DNA of 64,000 bases, from NCBI RefSeq assembly GCF_032854445.1, contig NW_027017953.1:1242501-1306500 (forward strand), in the 5' to 3' direction. How positions within the stretch are numbered: the stretch's first letter is position 1; every line of letters begins with the position of its first letter. This document shows, in pieces, positions 10,701 to 23,020 of the stretch. The stretch is from Liolophura sinensis. Lineage: Eukaryota; Mollusca; Polyplacophora; Chitonida; Chitonidae. The translations under genes were made by a program, and so were the position numbers. The notes beneath the pieces are model-generated. The model was not told where the DNA came from, ran no database searches, and saw nothing but the letters and a program-made list of their open reading frames with translations.

Positions 10701-11191
10701 ATGTCGACGGCGAGTGAGCTTCCAACGGACTACGACCAAACGTCCAAATTTTCTGATGAGGAATCATGTGGGCAGAAGGCAAAACGTTTTTTTCGGAAGA
10801 ACTTGTTGTTAGTGTTGTTGATACTGGCCATGTTCCTGGGGATAGGGATGGGGGCTGGGCTAAGGTACGTCCAGCCACCGTTCAACAGCCGACAGATCAT
10901 GTATCTGAGGTTCCCCGGGGATCTCCTCATGCAGATGTTGAAGATGCTGATCTTGCCCCTCATCGTGTCCAGTCTCATCTCGGGTCTAGCGGCTCTGGAC
11001 ACCCGGTCATCGGGCCGGATCGGCCTCAGGGCAGTTGTCTACTACATGACCACCACACTAGCAGCTGTCATCTTAGGCATCATCCTCGTGGTGGCTATCC
11101 GGCCAGGAGACTACGGACGGAAAGACAACATCGAACGGAGCGGTGAAGCCAAGAACGTCAACCCGGCCGACGCCATGTTGGATCTTGTTAG
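10701..11191 (+). CDS. EAAT: EAAT exon 1 (N-terminus, TM1-TM3)
   Basis: Encodes residues 1-163 plus two bases: cytosolic N-terminus, TM1 ([20 protein letters not shown]), TM2 with the symporter signature and TM3. Ends GTTAG|GTGAGG in phase 2. An (ATC)n-rich tract begins almost at the donor. Confidence 0.93.
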
Positions 11192-14100
11192 GTGAGGCAA
11201 GTAAATGGTCATCATCACAGTTATCATCACCGTCATCATCATTATTGTAATCATTTCCCTTATCGTTGTAATGATATCACCATCATCATTATCACCATCA
11301 CTGGTCTTATCACCACCATTATTATCACCATCACTGGGGTTATCAGCATCATCATTATTACCATCAGTTGGGTTATCACCATCATCATTATCACCATCAC
11401 TGGGGTTATAACCATCATCATTATCACCATCAGTGGTGCTATCACCATCATCATTATCACCATTACTGGGGTTATCAGCATCATCATTATCACCATCACT
11501 AGGATTATAACCATCATCGTTATCATCATCGGTGGGGCTATCACATCATCATTATTACCATCAGTGGGGCTATCACCATCATCATTATCATCATAAGTGG
11601 GGTTATCAACATTATCATCCCAATCATACTTATTGACTTAAGGGCAGTGTGACGGAAACATGGCACGATGGCGTTCATTCCCTCACAAGCTTCTTAAGGA
11701 GAGACTGAAGTTAACAGCGAGTTAGTTATTAGTTATTCGAAGCCTCAATTGTTGTGATGAGATGGTACTTATTAGTGTACAACATAGAGGCGTACAACAT
11801 GTACGATGTCCCCTTCACTAGGCTTTATCAGTATACACTGATATAAGAGACACGAACTGTGAGTTTTATGAAAGCAGCAACTCTTCGGGAAGATAAGCAA
11901 TGATCTTGTGGTCAGTAGTCATTTCGCAAGTTAACTATGTACATTCTCTTAGTCGTGTACGCATGCGCATTGCGATAGATTTTCCATTAATGCATGTATT
12001 CCTAAATCTAATGATCAGCAGTAATCTAATATTGGAAGTTTGACGGGTTAAAAAGCGACAGAGTTTTCGATTTGTACTGGAATATCGGGAACTAATTATG
12101 GCTCTAATATTGCTTACAGCAAGACGTGAGTATTAGGGGTAAAATGTCCACGCCAAGCATAGATAGGCAATACAGAATAAGGGATCATCAGAAAATCCAT
12201 TGTTAGATTGATTAGGGGTAAAATGTCCACGCCAAGCGTAGCTGGGCAATGCAGAATAAGGGATCATCAGAAAATCCATTGTTAGATTGATTAGGGGTAA
12301 AATGTCCACGCCAAGCATAGCTAGGCAATACAGAATAAGGGATCATCAGAAAACCCATTGTTAGATTGATTAGGGGTAAAATGTCCACGTCAAGAATAGC
12401 TAGGCAATACAGAATAAGGGATCATCAGAAAATCCATTGTTAGATTGATTAGAGGTAAAATGTCCACGCCAAGCATAGCTAGGCAATACAGAATAAGGGA
12501 CCATCAGAAAACCCATTGTTAGATTGATTAGGGGTAAAATGTCCACGTCAAGAATAGCTAGGCAATACAGAATAAGGGATCATCAGAAAATCCATTGTTA
12601 GATTGATAAGGGGTAAAATGTCCACGCCAAGCATAGGTAGGCAATACAGAATAAGGGACCATCAGAAAACCCATTGTTAGATTGATTAGGGGTAAAATGT
12701 CCACGTCAAGCATAGCTAGGCAATACGGAATAAGGGATCATCAGAAAATCCATTGTTATATTGATCCAGCTGCTTACGTCATAGAAATGTCATCAACACA
12801 TAACTGGACAGAAATCCTTCAATACTTTATAATAAATGAATGACAAAGCGTTTACCGGTGATGTTAATCATTTTGGGAATATTATATGCAGTTGCTTTAT
12901 ACAGAAGCTGTTAGACAATACTTCTATAATTTTATTCTGGTATAACGTACTGTTGGGCTATATATACTTATGATTTATGTACCCAAACGTATGTATACAG
13001 ATAGCGTATTTTATTTTGTTTCTAATACTAATACCTTTCAACATTAGTTAGAATATTACTTTCACTAAACATCACAGATCAATTTCTGTTATACAGTGCT
13101 GATAAACCTCGTGCCCTCATGGTACTGTCATTTCCAACAAATATCACGAGAAATTGTATTTACGAGTTGTTGTGAAATGGATCCAGAGCAATGGTCAATC
13201 ATTCTGTAAATCAGAAAAAAAATCATAGTTAAGGACAGTAATTAGTATTTATGCCAGTTAAGGACAGTAATTCGTATTTATGCCATCTCTGTTTGGCAGA
13301 GTTATGTTTCCTGACAACTTAATACAAGCCTGCTTCTCAAGGGTAAGTAAGGCCAATAACCCTCTCCAGCAACTCTCAATCTTCTACTAGACCATCTCTA
13401 CATCGCATTTCAACTAACATAACAACCCATGCAATTCCGTTACCGCAATCACACTGCCGCCAAAGTGCTTCCACCACTGAAGTATCATGCTGAAGACACC
13501 GGCCATGACACCGCACCCAGTCACATTATACTGACACCAGGCCAACCAGTTCTGTTTCGTTGCTCCAGCTTGCCATATACTCTGCCATACCTTCATGGAG
13601 CACATACAAGGTATATAAAAATATATATATATATAAAGGACCCCTTGTTACACCCCTTGTGCTTCACATTCAAGTTGGGGGCCCCCGTGGCTCAGCTGGT
13701 TAGCGCAGCGTAATGAGCCTCTCACCAATGCGGTCGCTGTGAGTTCAAGTCCAGCTCATGCTGGCTTCCTCTCCGGCCGTACGTAGGAAGTTCTGTCAGC
13801 AACCTGCGGATGGTCGTGGGTTTTCCCCGGGCTCTACCATAACGCTGGCTGCCGTCGTATAAGTGAAATATTCTTGAGTACGACGTAAAACACCAATCAA
13901 ATAAATAAATAAAATCATATTCAAGTAAGTTTTACTTGTTTTTCTGCATGAAAAAATACAATGCTACATGGAAGATTTCCTATCTACTTGCAAGGGGTCC
14001 TTTACGTAGCCTAATTCTCCGTCAGAGGACAGCTGTCAATCATTTGTGTAAGTTAAAGCCTGGTCAGGACACTTGTTGTGTATTATCTTGTGTACATATT

Positions 14101-17100: not shown

Positions 17101-20100
17101 TATGTTTGTTGTGATGAAGATCCATTGTCGGTATATGCTTGTTGTGATGAAGTTCCGTTGTTGGTACATGTTTGTTGTGATGAAGCTCCATTGTCGGTAT
17201 ATGCCTGTTGTGATGAAGCTCCATTGTCCGCATATGGCTATTGTGATGAAGCTCCATTGTCGGTATATGGCTGTTGTGATGAAGCTCCTTTGTCGGTATA
17301 TGGCTGTTGTGATGAAGCTCCTTTGTCGGTATATGGCTGTTGTGATGAAGCTCTATTGTCGATATATGTTTGTTGTGATGAAGTTTATTGTAATGAGGCT
17401 CCACTGTTGGTATATATTTGTTGTGATGAGGCTCCATTGTCGGTATATGCTTGTGGTGAAGTTCCGTTGTTGGTACATGCTTGTTGTGATGAATAAAAGA
17501 TGAATGGGTAAAGAAATGAAGGAAAGAATGAATGAATGAATAAAAACTAAACAATTGAATGAATGAGTAAATAAGTAAGTAAGTAAGTAAGTAAGAAAGC
17601 AAATAAATAAAGAAATAAATAAATGTGAACCCTGTATCTTTTTGGTAACAGCCCCTCAGGAGTTCGAGCCCAAACTGGTAACCGTGGACGGCATTAACAT
17701 TATGGGTTTGGTTGTCTTCTCCATCTTCTTTGGCATCATCATCGGCCGGATGGGAGAAAAGGGGCGTCCTCTGGTGGAGCTGTTTGACTCGCTCAACATC
17801 GCTACGATGAAACTGATCAGTCTTGTTATTTGGTAGGACTAGCGCATAGCCTGATTAACTTCATTCATATCTGCCGCGCGATGTAGCCTAAATGGGAAAC
17901 CTTAGTGTGGTCATTCGTACAGTATTCATTCCACAGTGTGCAAGGAAAGTGTGCAGGTGAAAGTGTGTAAATAAAAGTGTGCAAGTAAAAGTGTGCAAGA
18001 AAAAGTGAAATATTGGTAACGTCACCATTGCATGCCTAATTTCAATACGCAATACGCATTTCTCGGCACTGTGCATTCTTCATTTGGTCTTAAGGAATAC
18101 TGTCGACCAGGTTTAGCATGTAGCATGAAAGCCTGTTGACAAGATGATAGCATATCCTACTAGCGTATGACCTTTCTACTTTTACCATGTGAATCACTTC
18201 AGATTAGTAAAGAGGATATATACTCTTCCTGTATAATCGTGGTAAAGTGTACTCTGAAAAAGGCGACATGACCCTGTATGATTGTGGTAAGGTGTACTTT
18301 GAAAAAGGGGATATGGCCCTGTATGATTGTGGTCAAGTGTACTTTGAAAAAGGGGATATGGCCCTGTATAATTGTGGTAAAGTGTACTCTGAAAAAGGGG
18401 ATATGGCCCTGTATGATTGTGGTCAAGTGTACTTTGAAAAAGGGGATATGGCCCTGTATAATTGTGGTAAAGTGTACTCTGAAAAAGGGGATATGGCCCT
18501 GTATGATTGTGGTAAATTGTACTCTGAAAAAGGGGATATGGCCCTGTATGATTGTGGTAAAATGTACTCGGAAAAAGGGGATATGGCCCTGTATGATTGT
18601 GGTAAAGTGTACTTTGAAAAAGGGGATATGGTCCTGTATAAATGTGGCAAAGTGTCCTTTGAAAAAGGGGATATGGCCCTGTATGATTGTGGTCAAGTGT
18701 ACTTTGAAAAAGGGGATATGGCCCTGTATGATTGTGGTAAGGTGTACTTTGAAAAAGGGGATATGGTCCTGTATAAATGTGGCAAAGTGTCCTTTGAAAA
18801 AGGGGATATGGCCCTGTATGATTGTGGTAAAATGTACTCGGAAAAAGGGGATATGGCCCTGTATGATTGTGGTAAAGTGTACTTTGAAAAAGGGGATATG
18901 GTCCTGTATAAATGTGACAAAGTGTCCTTTGAAAAAGGGGATATGGCCCTGTATGATTGTGGTAAAGTGTACTTTGAAAAAGGGGATATGGTCCTGTATA
19001 AATGTGACAAAGTGTCCTTTGAAAAAGGGGATATGGCCCTGTATGATTGTGGTAAAGTGTACTTTGAAAAAGGGGATATGGCCCTGTATAAATGTGGGAA
19101 AGTATACTCTGAAAAAGGAGATATGGCCCTGTATACTTGTGGTAAAGTGTACTCTGAAAAAGGGGATCTTTCTAACTTTCCATTGAAGATATACACATAA
19201 ATATTATTCCTGTCGGGCCATTTCCATGATACGCCTAAAAGCGACTAGTTCATTGTACGAAATGGAATACAACTCATGAGTCACTTTTGCATGCATGTCT
19301 CAGTATGCATGATGTTTACCTGTGTACCCGATACTTCCCAGATATTCTCCTATCGGCATGATGTTTACCTGTGTACCCGATACTTCCCAGGTATTCTCCT
19401 ATCGGCATGATGTTTACCTGTGTACCCGATACTTCCCAGGTATTCTCCTATCGGCATAATATTTACCTGTGTACCCGATACTTCCCAGGTATTCTCCTAT
19501 CGGCATAATGTTTACCTGTGTACCCGATACTTCCCAGGTATTCTCCTATCGGCATAATGTTTACCTGTGTACCCGATACTTCCCAGGTATTCTCCTATCG
19601 GCATAATGTTTACCTGTGTACCGATACTTCCCAGGTATTCTCCTATCGGCATAATATTTACCTGTGTACCCGATACTTCCCAGGTATTCTCCTATCGGCA
19701 TGATGTTTACCTGTGTACCCGATACTTCCCAGGTATTCTCCTATCGGCATGATGTTTACCTGTGTACCCGATACTTCCCAGGTATTCTCCCATCGGCATG
19801 ATGTTTACCTGTGTACTCGATACTTCCCAGGTATTCTCCTATCGGCATGATGTTTACCTGTGTACCCGATACTTCCCAGGTATTCTCCTATCGGCATAAT
19901 GTTTACCTGTGTACCCGATACTTCCCAGGTATTCTCCTATCGGCATAATGTTTACTTGTGTACCCGATACTTCCCAGGTATTCTCCTATCGGCATGATGT
20001 TTACCTGTGTACCCGATACTTCCCAGGTATTCTCCTATCGGCGTGACCTTCCTCATTGCCGCCAAGGTCGTGGAGATGGAAGACCCAGAGGCTGTCATCC

Positions 20101-23020
20101 AGCAGATCGGCATGTACGCCCTCACCGTACTCTCCGGCCTCGCCATCCACGGGCTCATCGTCCTTCCACTCCTCTACTTCGTCATCGTCCGTAAAAATCC
20201 GTTCAAGTACCTGTACGGAATCATACAGGCCCTGGTCACGGCGCTGGCCACTTCCTCAAGGTGATTAGGTTGATCAAAAGCGATCACTCCTCATGCATAT
20301 TCACACACCAATCACGTCAGTGATTTCCAAAGCCTTACAGTTACACACACTCGGGCACTCAACCTCAGCCAGTTGCCAAAGTTTCCTTGGCACAGCGCCA
20401 TCAGTGTTTTTACTAGCTCCTGGCGAGGCTCCCATGTAGCATCAGACAATATCCACATTAAGAGAATATACATGTACCTGTGTTGAACGTGTTACCCTCA
20501 TATATAATGGCTGTCAGGTTTACGGGGGACAAAAATGTAGCGTTGGGAATCAACAACCGGCCATCGCCTTGGATGTGATCACCATAGTAACTTCAAGCCG
20601 CAGCCAAAGCATCGAGAGGTGGATTCGAACACGCGACCTCATTTGACAATCGAGGATAGACCCTTAACAGTAGCTCGTATTGATGATTAGGACTGAAACT
20701 AATATGTGGTTCGGAAGAATCAGAGATTGGAACTGTTATCATTTTATAATTAAACAGCCTTCAACATTTTTGAAAACGTCTAATGTTGCACGGATCAGCT
20801 TGGACATCTGATTACATGACATATTCTCTGTTTTTGCAGTTCTGCCACTTTGCCACTAACGATGCAATGTTTGGAGGAAAACAACGGCATAGACCCGCGT
20901 ATAATAAAGTTTGTGGCGCCTGTAGGAGCTACGATCAACATGGATGGGACGGCGCTGTACGAAGCGGTGGCCGCCATATTTATAGGGCAGATCAACCAGA
21001 TGTCTATGGACGTCGGTAAAGTCATCACTGTCAGGTAAACTATCCCAGGTCCCCACTATCTTCTTCGTCCTTGATTTACTCTTATCATCTGTTGTCTTCT
21101 CAAAACAGGCGGCAAATCTCCACTCATCATTTGTCACGTGACCAGTCCACTTCACTCTTGGGTGAGGTCAAACCTCAACAAAGCTACATGTATTTGAGGT
21201 GTGGTAAAATTAAGTGCACTTTCAGGGATATCTGATTATCTGTGATAACTTAGTGCCTAATGTTTCAAACTAGAGTCAAATCGTCTCAATTAGTGTATAC
21301 ACTGAAAACCTACTTTGTTACTGTTAACAAAGAACTTTGTTCTATGTGTCAACAAAGTACTTTGTTAAATTAATTTTAATTAAGTAATTTATTTATTTAT
21401 TTGATTGGTGTTTTACGCCGTACTCAAGAATATTTCACTCATACGACGGCGACCAGCATTATGGTGGGTGGAAGCTTGGCAGAGCCCGGGGAAACCCACG
21501 ACCATCTGCAGATTAAATTAATTTTAACTAAGTGGCTTTGTTAATTCATTTATAAAAGTAATGTTTTTATTTAACAAAGAACAATTTAATCTTTTAGCAA
21601 ATTGTGTTTCGCTACGATATTTCACTACGGTCTTGATAACGATAGTTTTCACCAATTTGATTGATCTTTCCATGCTGATTCCAGAAGTTAGTTAGATTTC
21701 CCCTTCAAGCTGCACCAAATTAGTTATACACAACTGGACTGAAAAACAGAATCTTGTCTCTTCCACCTATCCAGACAGTCGCTAAATTGTTGCAGAATCA
21801 CAGCGCGCCATTGTAGAGGGCGCTGTCGGTTCAAGTGACTTTGTTACCTATTCCCAGAGTACAGTCAGTAACAGAGTAGTTTGTTAGTTTAAACAAACAA
21901 TTTGTTAAAAGACGGTTAACAAAGTAAATTCTCTTAAAATTTAACAAAGCAGCATTTTCAGTGTACTAACATTCTCTTCCAAATCAACTAGAGAATAAAA
22001 TCCCTGCTTTACAGATTTCGATTTCATTTCAGTATAACGGCTACAGCAGCTGCTATTGGGGCGGCAGGAGTGCCACAGGCGGGGCTTGTTACCATGGTGA
22101 TTGTGCTCTCAGCGGTTGGTCTACCCACTGATGACGTCACATTAATCTTAGCAATCGACTGGTTTTTGTGAGTAATCGGTTTTAAGTGTTAGATACTGTA
22201 CCGTCCATTTCCCAAATTTTATACGTTAGGGCGATACTAAGTTTACTAGGCGATACTAAGGTAACTAGGCGATACTAAGGTTACTAGGCGATATTAATTT
22301 TACTAAGGTGTTTACTAATACTCCTAACCAACAATTTTCAGAAAATGCGAGGGGATAAACTCATTAGTGTTATAAATGCACAGAATAGGCGTCAGTACCA
22401 TATTTCAGTAAGTGCACGCTATTTTTTCGTTAAAATTGTAGTTACAATGCAAGTCAAAAAATAATTAATTACATAGCCTATAACATCTCCACCAAATAAA
22501 AAAATACGCATTATCGCCTTGCCCGTGTTACTTTTACATAAATCCTCCGTATACGTGCACATCTTGACCTTTGTGGCAGTATTCAGTCAAACATTTTATT
22601 TGACACTGTAATACTACCACGCGTACATTGTAATCTTCAATTCGTCATATGATTCGTCATTCGTCATATGAGTGGAGCGGGTGAGTGGGTGAGTAGTGAG
22701 TAGGTGAGTGGGTGAGTGCGTGAGAGGGTAAGTGGGTAAGTGGTGATTGGGAGGGTGCGTGAGTGGGTGAACAGGTGAATGGATAAGTGCCTGAGTGGGT
22801 GAGCGGCTCTGTGGGAGAGTAGGGACTTAAGTCTTGGTGTTTGTTCTGATTGATCAGGGATCGTTTCCGGACGATGATCAATGTCCTCGGTGACGGCTTC
22901 GGCTGTGGAATCGTCGCTCACCTGTCCCGGGGAGAAATGGCCAAGATGGACACCGCGTCGGAGATGGAGAAGGACATGAGCAATGGCCATCACAATGATG
23001 GTTATGAGACTGGGTTTTGA
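10701..23020 (+). CDS. EAAT: Excitatory amino acid transporter (SLC1 family), 8 coding exons, 521 aa
   Basis: Sodium-coupled glutamate/aspartate transporter of the plasma membrane. Exon model: 10701-11191, 13300-13342, 16296-16419, 17652-17832, 20027-20260, 20840-21034, 22033-22167, 22858-23020. All junctions are GT/AG, phases agree, and the total is 1566 nt. Visible family hallmarks: the family signature [17 protein letters not shown] in TM2; the HP1 serine-rich motif TSSSSATLP (355-363); NMDGT in TM7 (391-395); the HP2 loop [12 protein letters not shown] (429-440); and TM8 with D469, R472, T473 and N476. The Arg in TM8 is the residue associated with acidic rather than neutral substrates. 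The TM3-TM4 loop exon carries five N-glycosylation sequons. I chose the ATG at 10701 because MSTASELP precedes the cytosolic N-terminus; an upstream in-frame ATG at 10590 would add 37 residues with no family resemblance. Length is normal for animal EAATs; the exact orthologue cannot be assigned. Confidence 0.95.
11200..11625. repeat. (ATC)n-rich microsatellite in EAAT intron 1
   Basis: 'atcaccatcatcattatcaccatcactggggtt' type units of about 33 bp made mainly of ATC/ATT triplets. Begins about 10 bp after the exon 1 donor. Confidence 0.9.
12126..12765. repeat. 79-bp minisatellite in EAAT intron 1, about 8 units
   Basis: Unit runs 'gattaggggtaaaatgtcca' ... 'aggcaatacagaataaggga' ... 'ccattgttagatt' with few substitutions between copies. 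Confidence 0.95.
13300..13342 (+). CDS. EAAT: EAAT exon 2 (43-nt microexon)
   Basis: After the acceptor 'ctgtttggcag', phase-2 entry gives [15 protein letters not shown], matching the family's conserved 'NMFPxN' segment after TM3. Donor AGG|GTAAGT, leaving phase 0. Missed by any ORF search because of its length. Confidence 0.88.
13676..13916 (+). mobile_element. Near full-length tRNA-derived SINE
   Basis: Complete element: 'gcccccgtggctcagctggttagcg' (box A), 'gtgagttcaagtcc' (box B), central body, 'cgtcgtataagtgaaatattcttgagtacgacgtaaaacaccaatc' and an (AAAT)n tail. It lies in EAAT intron 2. The tRNA-like head makes it a pol III type element, not a functional tRNA gene. Confidence 0.92.
14056..15590. 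repeat. 43-bp minisatellite in EAAT intron 2, about 35 units
   Basis: Unit 'tagcctggtcaggacacttg' + 'ttgtgtattgtcttgtgtacata'. Variants of the central part (tgtaatg / tgtattg / tgttttg) are interspersed. Confidence 0.95.
15591..16295 (+). other. 3' part of EAAT intron 2, no exon found
   Basis: Single-copy AT-rich sequence with a short ~30-bp repeat of 'cactgtaataacactgtaacgttcac' at about 16120-16250. The short minus-strand ORFs here show no motif. Confidence 0.4.
16296..16419 (+). CDS. EAAT: EAAT exon 3 (glycosylated extracellular loop)
   Basis: Acceptor 'catgttttcag', phase 0 in, phase 1 out (GCA G|GTGATC). Encodes 41 residues between TM3 and TM4 with five N-X-S/T sequons (NQT, NLT, NMS, NAT, NKT). 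This loop is variable in the family, so the exon is supported mainly by frame, splice sites and sequon density. Confidence 0.85.
16555..17500. repeat. 33-bp minisatellite with a 231-bp higher-order unit, EAAT intron 3
   Basis: Unit 'gatgaagctccattgtcgg' + 'tatatggctgttgt'. Seven monomers form a 231-bp block: 'gtccgcatatggct' recurs near 16765, 16996 and 17227. Because 33 is a multiple of 3, long open frames exist on both strands (for example 362 codons on the minus strand); they are artefacts. Confidence 0.95.
17505..17626. repeat. Tetranucleotide microsatellites before EAAT exon 4
   Basis: Runs of (TGAA)n, (GTAA)n and (AAAT)n; the (gtaagtaagtaag) stretch creates several GTAAGT donor-like words. 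Confidence 0.85.
17652..17832 (+). CDS. EAAT: EAAT exon 4 (TM4c-TM5)
   Basis: Acceptor 'tttggtaacag'. Encodes [19 protein letters not shown], a TM segment, the motif [10 protein letters not shown] and the start of TM5. Leaves in phase 2 at ATT TG|GTAGGA. Confidence 0.93.
17833..18231 (+). other. Start of EAAT intron 4, nothing recognised
   Basis: Includes a few 'aaagtgtgcaagt' short repeats at about 17938-18005 and otherwise single-copy sequence. Confidence 0.4.
18232..19172. repeat. 45-bp minisatellite in EAAT intron 4, about 21 units
   Basis: Unit 'gtgtactttgaaaaagggga' + 'tatggccctgtatgattgtggtaaa'. The 15-codon period keeps frames open on both strands, including a 317-codon + strand frame repeating [15 protein letters not shown]. 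No splice site, start context or domain supports translation. Confidence 0.95.
19308..20040. repeat. 49-bp minisatellite containing the EAAT exon 5 acceptor, 15 units
   Basis: Each unit reads 'atgtttacctgtgtacccga' + 'tacttcccag' + 'gtattctcctatcggcatg'. The last unit is the real acceptor (tacttcccag|G at 20026/20027) plus the first 16 nt of exon 5, which encode the end of Trp and YSPIG. All earlier copies keep the acceptor AG and the exon start; the first has G to A just after the AG. Confidence 0.95.
20027..20260 (+). CDS. EAAT: EAAT exon 5 (TM5-TM6 to HP1)
   Basis: Phase 2 in and out. Encodes (W)[18 protein letters not shown], a TM segment [13 protein letters not shown] and the start of HP1 ([10 protein letters not shown]). 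Its first 16 nt are shared with every unit of the upstream 49-bp array. Confidence 0.94.
20500..20690 (-). mobile_element. Possible second-family tRNA-derived SINE, reverse orientation
   Basis: 'gtggattcgaacacgcgacctcatttgacaatcgagg' read on the minus strand gives a tRNA-like box B 'cgtgttcgaatccac'. Similar in type to the fragment at about 9966-10060. No tail or target duplication found. Confidence 0.45.
20840..21034 (+). CDS. EAAT: EAAT exon 6 (HP1-TM7)
   Basis: Acceptor 'tgtttttgcag'. Completes TSSSSATLP across the junction and encodes [26 protein letters not shown] and [14 protein letters not shown]. Phase 2 out at GTC AG|GTAAAC. Confidence 0.95.
21292..21967. mobile_element. MITE-like element with ~25-bp terminal inverted repeats, EAAT intron 6
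   Basis: Left end 'tatacactgaaaacctactttgtta' and right end (reverse complement) 'gtacactgaaaatgctgctttgtta' match with few differences. Internal sub-terminal 'ttaacaaag' / 'ctttgttaa' words repeat on both sides. About 670 bp including a nested SINE. No transposase frame; probably a non-autonomous DNA element. Confidence 0.7.
21387..21512 (-). mobile_element. 5'-truncated SINE nested in the MITE, with target duplication
   Basis: Tail 'tttatttatttatttgattggtgttttacgcc' to 'aaacccacgaccatctgcag'. It is flanked by 'taaattaattttaattaagt' on the left and 'taaattaattttaactaagt' on the right: a ~20-bp target-site duplication with one mismatch. Confidence 0.88.
22033..22167 (+). CDS. EAAT: EAAT exon 7 (HP2)
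   Basis: Acceptor 'tttcatttcag', phase 2 in and out. Encodes the HP2 hairpin [17 protein letters not shown] and [17 protein letters not shown], then the start of TM8 (AIDWF). Confidence 0.95.
22222..22308. repeat. 21-bp tandem repeat, about 4 units
   Basis: 'ttactaggcgatactaagg' repeated with small changes, in EAAT intron 7. Confidence 0.8.
22672..22812. repeat. GTGAG-rich array just upstream of EAAT exon 8
   Basis: 'gtgagtgggtgagt' style units repeated over about 140 bp, ending 45 bp before the exon 8 acceptor. Many words fit the 5' splice-site consensus GTGAGT. Confidence 0.85.
22858..23020 (+). CDS. EAAT: EAAT exon 8 (TM8 end, C-terminal tail)
   Basis: Acceptor 'tgattgatcag', phase 2 in. 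Encodes [16 protein letters not shown], then a cytosolic tail ending ...DGYETGF and TGA at 23018-23020. Confidence 0.95.

Follow-up and report, generated by a model that had tools for sequence, protein, structure and literature searches.

Fifteen acceptor-like repeat units at an intron-exon boundary of a chiton EAAT gene, with similar arrays in other gene families

How can an intron end in fifteen near-identical acceptors while the gene that holds it still encodes an intact protein? The question is raised by a 64,000-nucleotide stretch of DNA (the window), at positions 1242501-1306500 of contig C14, from a chiton whose genome was published as Liolophura japonica together with RNA-seq from five tissues, according to the sections of that paper drawn on here (PMC11068029); the name has since been corrected to L. 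sinensis (PMC12441733). The window holds an EAAT gene with the following features, in which a caret marks the splice boundary:

10701..11191, plus strand: EAAT coding exon 1, with the ATG at 10701 (gene model)
13300..13346, plus strand: EAAT coding exon 2 (gene model)
17652..17832, plus strand: EAAT coding exon 3, with the donor TTTG^GTAGGA (gene model)
17833..20026, plus strand: intron 3, phase 2 (TG^G), GT...AG, which holds both minisatellites (gene model, TRF)
18228..19167, plus strand: second minisatellite, within intron 3, 45 bp x 20.9 copies, without exon contact (TRF)
19307..20046, plus strand: minisatellite of 15 units (49 bp, one of 48) (TRF and reading of the units)
19342..19993, plus strand: 14 decoy acceptor units (exon-like starts; AG in 14/14, AG^GT in 13/14)
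20027..20260, plus strand: EAAT coding exon 4 of 7, with AG before it and GT after it, its first 16 nt being the last repeat copy (gene model, EAAT1 alignment)
20840..21034, plus strand: EAAT coding exon 5 (gene model)
22033..22167, plus strand: EAAT coding exon 6 (gene model)
22858..23020, plus strand: EAAT coding exon 7, with the stop codon (gene model)

The gene itself is intact, as the seven coding exons join into a product of 481 aa that matches the Pfam SDF profile (E 1.2e-117) over profile positions 1-386 of 387, and the best solved relatives of this product are EAAT1 constructs. The alignment to EAAT1 passes through the ...LISLVIW^YSPIG... junction without an insertion; thus, the normal EAAT protein needs the last acceptor, at 20027, and the anatomy of the locus likewise calls for the copy that adjoins the exon.

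The minisatellite at this boundary was the only array called there by TRF (19307-20046, 15.1 copies, 97% matches, score 1375), and reading its units gives 15 of them, each 49 bp except one of 48 bp, for a total of 740 bp. The motif CAG^(G/A)TATTCTC occurs 15 times with a spacing of 49, once 48, and places decoy exon-like starts at 19342, 19391, 19440, 19489, 19538, 19587, 19635, 19684, 19733, 19782, 19831, 19880, 19929 and 19978, followed by the real start at 20027. TRF and the motif positions agree with a preliminary description of this DNA that had recognized 15 tandem units carrying the acceptor and the first 16 coding nt, of which only the last joins the real exon; the exon at 20027-20260 does adjoin unit 15 alone. 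The number of units and the boundary at 20027 given there stand, and some small details are amended: one unit is 48 bp rather than all being 49, and the exon, taken to be the fifth, ranks fourth among the seven coding exons of the present model. In the window as a whole, tandem repeats with a period of at least 10 make up 41% of the sequence (48 merged arrays), seemingly a high minisatellite load. The stretch at 21388-21500 (TTTGATTGGTGTTTTACGCCGTACTCAAGAATATTTCACT...) presumably resembles a dispersed molluscan repeat.

In each unit, about 33 nt from the end of the intron are joined to the first 16 nt of the exon, and one of the units reads CTCCCATCGG. AG is present in 15/15 units and AG^GT in 14/15, the exception being the first, which reads CAG^ATATTC. 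Read by eye against the splicing consensus, the intron part holds a branch-point-like TTTAC, with its A at -24, and then the pyrimidine-rich CTTCCCAG, no other AG being seen between the branch-point-like element and the acceptor of the unit. On this reading, each unit appears to be a complete 3' splice site in its own right. The duplication junction, again by eye, is flanked by two GCRTGA stretches, in the intron and in the exon, that lie 49 bp from each other. When the genome (609,464,459 bases in 632 contigs) was searched at the DNA level with a 201-base query running from the last units into the start of the exon, six matches fell in this array and one elsewhere, a result that does not prove the array rare, as the search skips very common words. 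The single outside match is the exon of a paralog, at 78%.

The 14 upstream acceptors were compared with the real one both in what they would encode and in their sequence. Translation from each gave a premature stop in 14/14 cases, in line with the expectation of the preliminary description that any earlier acceptor would shift the frame or meet a stop codon. The stop comes at once from the first acceptor, the penultimate one shifts the frame and runs for 72 residues before its stop, and the others end at a TGA or TAA, mostly in the third unit. In sequence, four decoys (19391, 19440, 19733 and 19880) are identical to the real site at 49/49 positions (-33 to +16), nine others match it at 47 or 48 of 49, and the remaining one, put out of register by a 1-nt deletion, at 34/49. 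As four decoys are identical to the real site, the local sequence from -33 to +16 cannot mark the right one, and the choice of acceptor must come from outside that stretch. The real acceptor scores 3.69 with a matrix trained on this genome, less than all 180 other sampled acceptors (median 10.92), whose values are inflated, this score having also served to pick the sampled edges.

A precedent for such an arrangement exists in amphioxus, in which the arrays called mirages are minisatellite-like tandem repeats that straddle the boundary of intron and exon, on the acceptor or the donor side, with AG or GT in many units. They are described in Adh3, the globins BflGb6 and BflGb9, troponin C and PGBD5, with regular splicing reported although many of the repeats hold AG or GT (excerpts of PMC3087553 and PMC3902484). 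The EAAT array shares with them the boundary-spanning unit, the AG and GT kept in many units and the homogenized copies. It differs in size, with 15 units compared to 6 and 3 in the two BflGb6 haplotypes, and in its host, a mollusc rather than a cephalochordate, in which mirages were found in 17/260 further exons of four families and are known from one assembly. Among titles and abstracts of openly licensed PMC papers, no report of mirages or boundary minisatellites in molluscs was recognized. The main text of the eLife chiton genome paper, searched by word, contains neither tandem repeat nor minisatellite, and a cone-snail paper, in the portion consulted, concerns simple repeats.

Taken together, the EAAT array is best read, with a probability of roughly 0.7, as a mirage, that is, a tolerated duplication in which the exon-adjacent copy is used through exon definition. 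Judging from the sequence, the first duplication probably arose between the two GCRTGA stretches, reaching 33 nt into the intron and 16 nt into the exon, after which slippage or unequal exchange would have multiplied the unit and kept the copies alike. The intron ends in 15 near-identical acceptors because the amplified unit amounts to a whole 3' splice site. By analogy with amphioxus, the last acceptor is most likely chosen as the only one with an exon body and a donor behind it, helped by exonic signals beyond +16, and the other 14 would be removed along with the intron. The array would be tolerated and not selected, as one of many in the chiton genome. Some use of decoys may occur, and two findings speak against this account: the real acceptor, the weakest of those sampled, would predict leaky recognition, and an excess of YAG^GT among mirages, set out below, is not predicted by simple tolerance.

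The premature stops admit a different reading, in which splicing to the decoys is regulated and conditionally adds a stop codon that lowers the output of the transporter. This use of the decoys, leading to mRNA decay, had been raised in the preliminary description, and 14/14 stops agree with it; the paralogs of the gene do not. An SDF profile search of the genome gave at least 78 exon matches, five of them inside the window, and 17 copies of the array-bearing exon were compared (the window and 16 paralogous ones, with 14/16 acceptors read directly by script and the exon starts of loci L024 and L028 placed from translations). In this one genome, a boundary array is found in 2/17 copies, the window and L022, and the units of the two are unrelated, the splice site being all that they share by eye. 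The other 15/17 lack an array across the acceptor. L022, on contig C1, has about 10 units of 42 bp (one of 39) that end 11 nt into the exon, and its decoys are in frame and open in 9/9, each unit adding about 14 residues, so that their use would not lead to decay. Genes of the SNF, myosin and kinesin families likewise carry arrays of this sort. With the arrangement unconserved among paralogs, open in L022 and present in unrelated genes, regulated decay becomes a very unlikely account of the EAAT decoys.

Several further observations concern the EAAT paralogs. Use of the L022 decoys (L022:1270-1688) would insert mostly hydrophobic repeats of about 14 residues into the transporter instead of a stop. 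An upstream acceptor of the same gene on C1, L044, carries a second mirage of about 8 units of 53 bp. At the other end of the L022 intron, an 18-bp array of about 37 copies (L022:273-930) starts 6 nt into the intron after the donor, and as this array does not hold a copy of the donor edge it was not accepted as a mirage; the intron is built largely from the two arrays. A 13-bp repeat of 2.1 copies overlaps the acceptor at L020:263-289, uncounted here and possibly a nascent mirage or chance. EAAT genes that closely resemble one another lie clustered in tandem at C7:9084550-9147250.

Mirages were surveyed in 260 further exons, comprising 73 SDF matches outside the window, 60/109 SNF, 52/81 myosin-head and 75/132 kinesin matches. 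The match lists of all four families are lower bounds, the SNF and myosin picks are mostly the tops of their lists, the kinesin picks form a later sample without internal stops, and the samples are small and partly related. Near-match arrays were listed by TRF at a minimum score of 36-40 and at distances of up to 50 nt (SDF), 60 nt (SNF, myosin) or 70 nt (kinesin and L001-L008), and most were read by eye. A boundary-copy scan was added afterwards, in which the 26 nt round the boundary were sought a second time within 420 nt at 441 edges (225 acceptor, 216 donor). At 20/26 identities or more, the scan returned 14/441 edges (6 acceptor, 8 donor) and none with reversed or reverse-complemented flanks; at 18/26 it returned 17 edges compared to 2 reversed and 0 reverse-complemented, and at 16/26 the 48 edges, against 42 reversed and 24 reverse-complemented, are noise.

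For 17/260 exons, the intron next to the exon was found to repeat the boundary between the two, namely SDF 5/73, SNF 2/60, myosin 6/52 and kinesin 4/75 (13/185 before the kinesin sample). Seven lie on the acceptor side: L022 and L044 (SDF), L107 (SNF), L127 and L137 (myosin), and L152 and L153 (kinesin). The ten on the donor side are L040, L049 and L060 (SDF), L082 (SNF), L121, L125, L133 and L148 (myosin), and L185 and L186 (kinesin). Twelve of the 17 are clear; the five weaker ones are L060 with 2 copies, L185 with 2.4 copies, the diverged L040 and L049, and L082, which has only about 3 nt of exon. By eye, the exon part of the mirages ranges from about 3 nt to more than 100 nt. The total is the union of the TRF reading and the scan and probably a lower bound: the TRF lists missed the diverged L049, L049 and L133 were found by the scan, L040 stayed below its cut-off (19/26), and it missed L107, L060 and L185, for which the edge had been set on a decoy or elsewhere. 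The L127 donor, at 20/26 in the scan, was ambiguous on reading and stands outside the 17, though it is included in the YAG test below. A count by TRF alone on stop-free matches gave 6/225 edges, with the window included and one locus (L005) wrongly oriented. None of L001-L008 had an array within 70 nt of the match.

Other candidates were rejected. Arrays near an edge showed no edge copy by eye in L143, L090, L075, L117, L131, L142, L079, L095, L150, L158, L184, L194, L206 and L024, and only short repeats of 13-15 bp in about 2-3 copies were present in L065, L076, L078, L084, L202, L017 and L020. Among the mirages that were counted, L148:499-1101 repeats the last ~110 nt of a myosin exon and its donor about five times in a 124-bp unit, and the downstream copies re-encode the exon tail. 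L049:1148-1550, also counted, is an old, diverged donor array, missed by TRF, in which some copies have a decayed GT, and the count may underestimate how common decayed mirages are.

As for where arrays lie, they cover ~11-14% in the intron at 200-400 nt from the edge; coverage is 4.5% at acceptors and 0.9% at donors, and does not exceed 1% at a depth of 50-60 nt in the exon (these figures, like the decoy and period counts that follow, include L005 read in the wrong orientation). A preference of arrays for splice sites was thus rejected, there being no peak at exon edges; arrays land broadly in introns and sometimes run into an exon. Mirage periods are multiples of 3 in 6/16 (L133 and L049 left out), about chance. 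That unrelated genes carry arrays on either the acceptor or the donor side, with periods about as expected by chance, looks like mutational turnover and not like a dedicated switch.

The decoys were also examined for loss of their splice signals. AG or GT is kept in 89/96 decoys counted (L082, L133 and L049 left out; the non-units L022:1261, L060:684 and L185:707 excluded; L022:1304 re-registered by one base and intact), a retention for which no p-value is given as the units are related by duplication. AG is lost in 7/69 acceptor decoys (one in L044, four in L152, and two in L153 with the same change) and GT in 0/27 donor decoys. Silencing of decoys by mutation was therefore rejected as a general explanation, since most are not being mutated away. 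By eye, GT is lost in one L133 decoy and at least two L049 decoys, so old arrays do decay. The idea that weak acceptors allow mirages was rejected as well: the window has the weakest, yet L022 scores 16.4, L044 12.9 and L127 9.3, so this is not general. For L107, the score of 11.4 belongs to a decoy copy at 414, the genuine edge being at 467.

The sequence CAG^GTATTC of the unit, an acceptor with a possible donor immediately behind it, raises the possibility of self-correcting recursive splicing, in which an acceptor used too early would be re-spliced to a later AG. AG^GT is present in 13/14 decoys, and CAG^GTATTC has a donor score of 5.76 in the matrix from this genome, with 26/184 sampled donors lower. 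The juxtaposition of acceptor and donor recalls the recursive ratchet points of Drosophila (PMC8605326), from which the chiton array differs in that the donor half is a coding start and weak, the intron is 2.2 kb long and the arrangement is present in 14/15 units. Mirage boundaries also have, more often than others, a form that could serve as both donor and acceptor. One-sided Fisher tests that leave the window out, and that were framed after seeing it, give exon-start GT in 5/7 acceptor mirages compared to 44/165 other acceptors (p 0.021; 4/6, p 0.053, with two mirages from one gene counted once) and exon-end YAG in 5/11 donor mirage edges, L127 donor included, compared to 38/167 others (p 0.095). 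Pooled, YAG^GT is found at 10/18 mirage edges and 82/332 others (p 0.0065; 9/17, p 0.014, with one gene counted once), a modest excess at mirage boundaries.

Against recursion stands the fact that this test was framed with the window in view: the first 15 mirages gave 10/15 (p 0.001), the later edges L133, L049 and L127 donor, none of them YAG, weakened the excess, and the later kinesin sample alone gives 2/4 (p 0.26). Donor-like AG^GT scores are poor elsewhere (L044 2.78, L127 1.93, L107 1.51), and in the 14 directly read paralogs it is the W^Y codons that dictate the exon-start GT of EAAT, array or not. Recursive splicing of the EAAT array is accordingly judged unlikely, and the broader proposal that chiton genes hold very many arrays across splice boundaries, those at YAG^GT persisting since each copy is both acceptor and donor, with re-splicing returning the same mRNA, is held to be similarly improbable. 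If it were true, the arrays would be splicing-neutral and self-correcting, free to grow without harm to the gene.

A further possibility is that the array is raw material for a new intron or exon by way of AGGT duplication, an origin of introns proposed for mirages by the amphioxus authors (excerpts of PMC3087553) and compatible with the AGGT of 13/14 decoys. In the potato RdRp case (PMC4974935, where the AGGT model is also named), a duplicated segment crosses the boundary and carries splice signals, as in the chiton, and the duplication gave a new intron whose donor derives from exonic sequence in the upstream copy, an outcome that would also suit recursive splicing. The potato case is a single duplication with a new intron; in the chiton, the intron is old and the copies number 15. 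The age of intron 3 is apparent from the 14 paralogous exons read directly, which share the same start at the same codon position after AG, and none of the units is known to serve as an exon, making intron birth under way highly improbable here.

Tandem arrays are error-prone in assembly, and an artefact was considered for this reason. The 740-bp array is short compared to the HiFi reads of the published assembly (mean 8,347 bp at 14X; sections of PMC11068029), its unit variants are ordered and include one indel, and the same kind of array is seen at unrelated loci, leaving an artefact exceedingly improbable. The internal tandem repeats of human segmental-duplication genes share with the chiton array the placing of minisatellites at exon-intron boundaries, and are able to change splicing; they are tied to recent primate paralogs and alternative transcripts, and arrays of whole acceptors were not met in the parts of PMC2812944 drawn on.

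The kind of array is known from amphioxus, and what is new here is its recurrence across genes of a chiton. The 15 acceptor copies of the EAAT gene form a natural experiment in which the local sequence is constant and only the position relative to the exon body varies, and mirage arrays in general offer many replicates for the study of exon definition, recursive splicing and intron origin. Their presence in 17 of the 260 exons sampled from one mollusc suggests that mirages are not a cephalochordate oddity.
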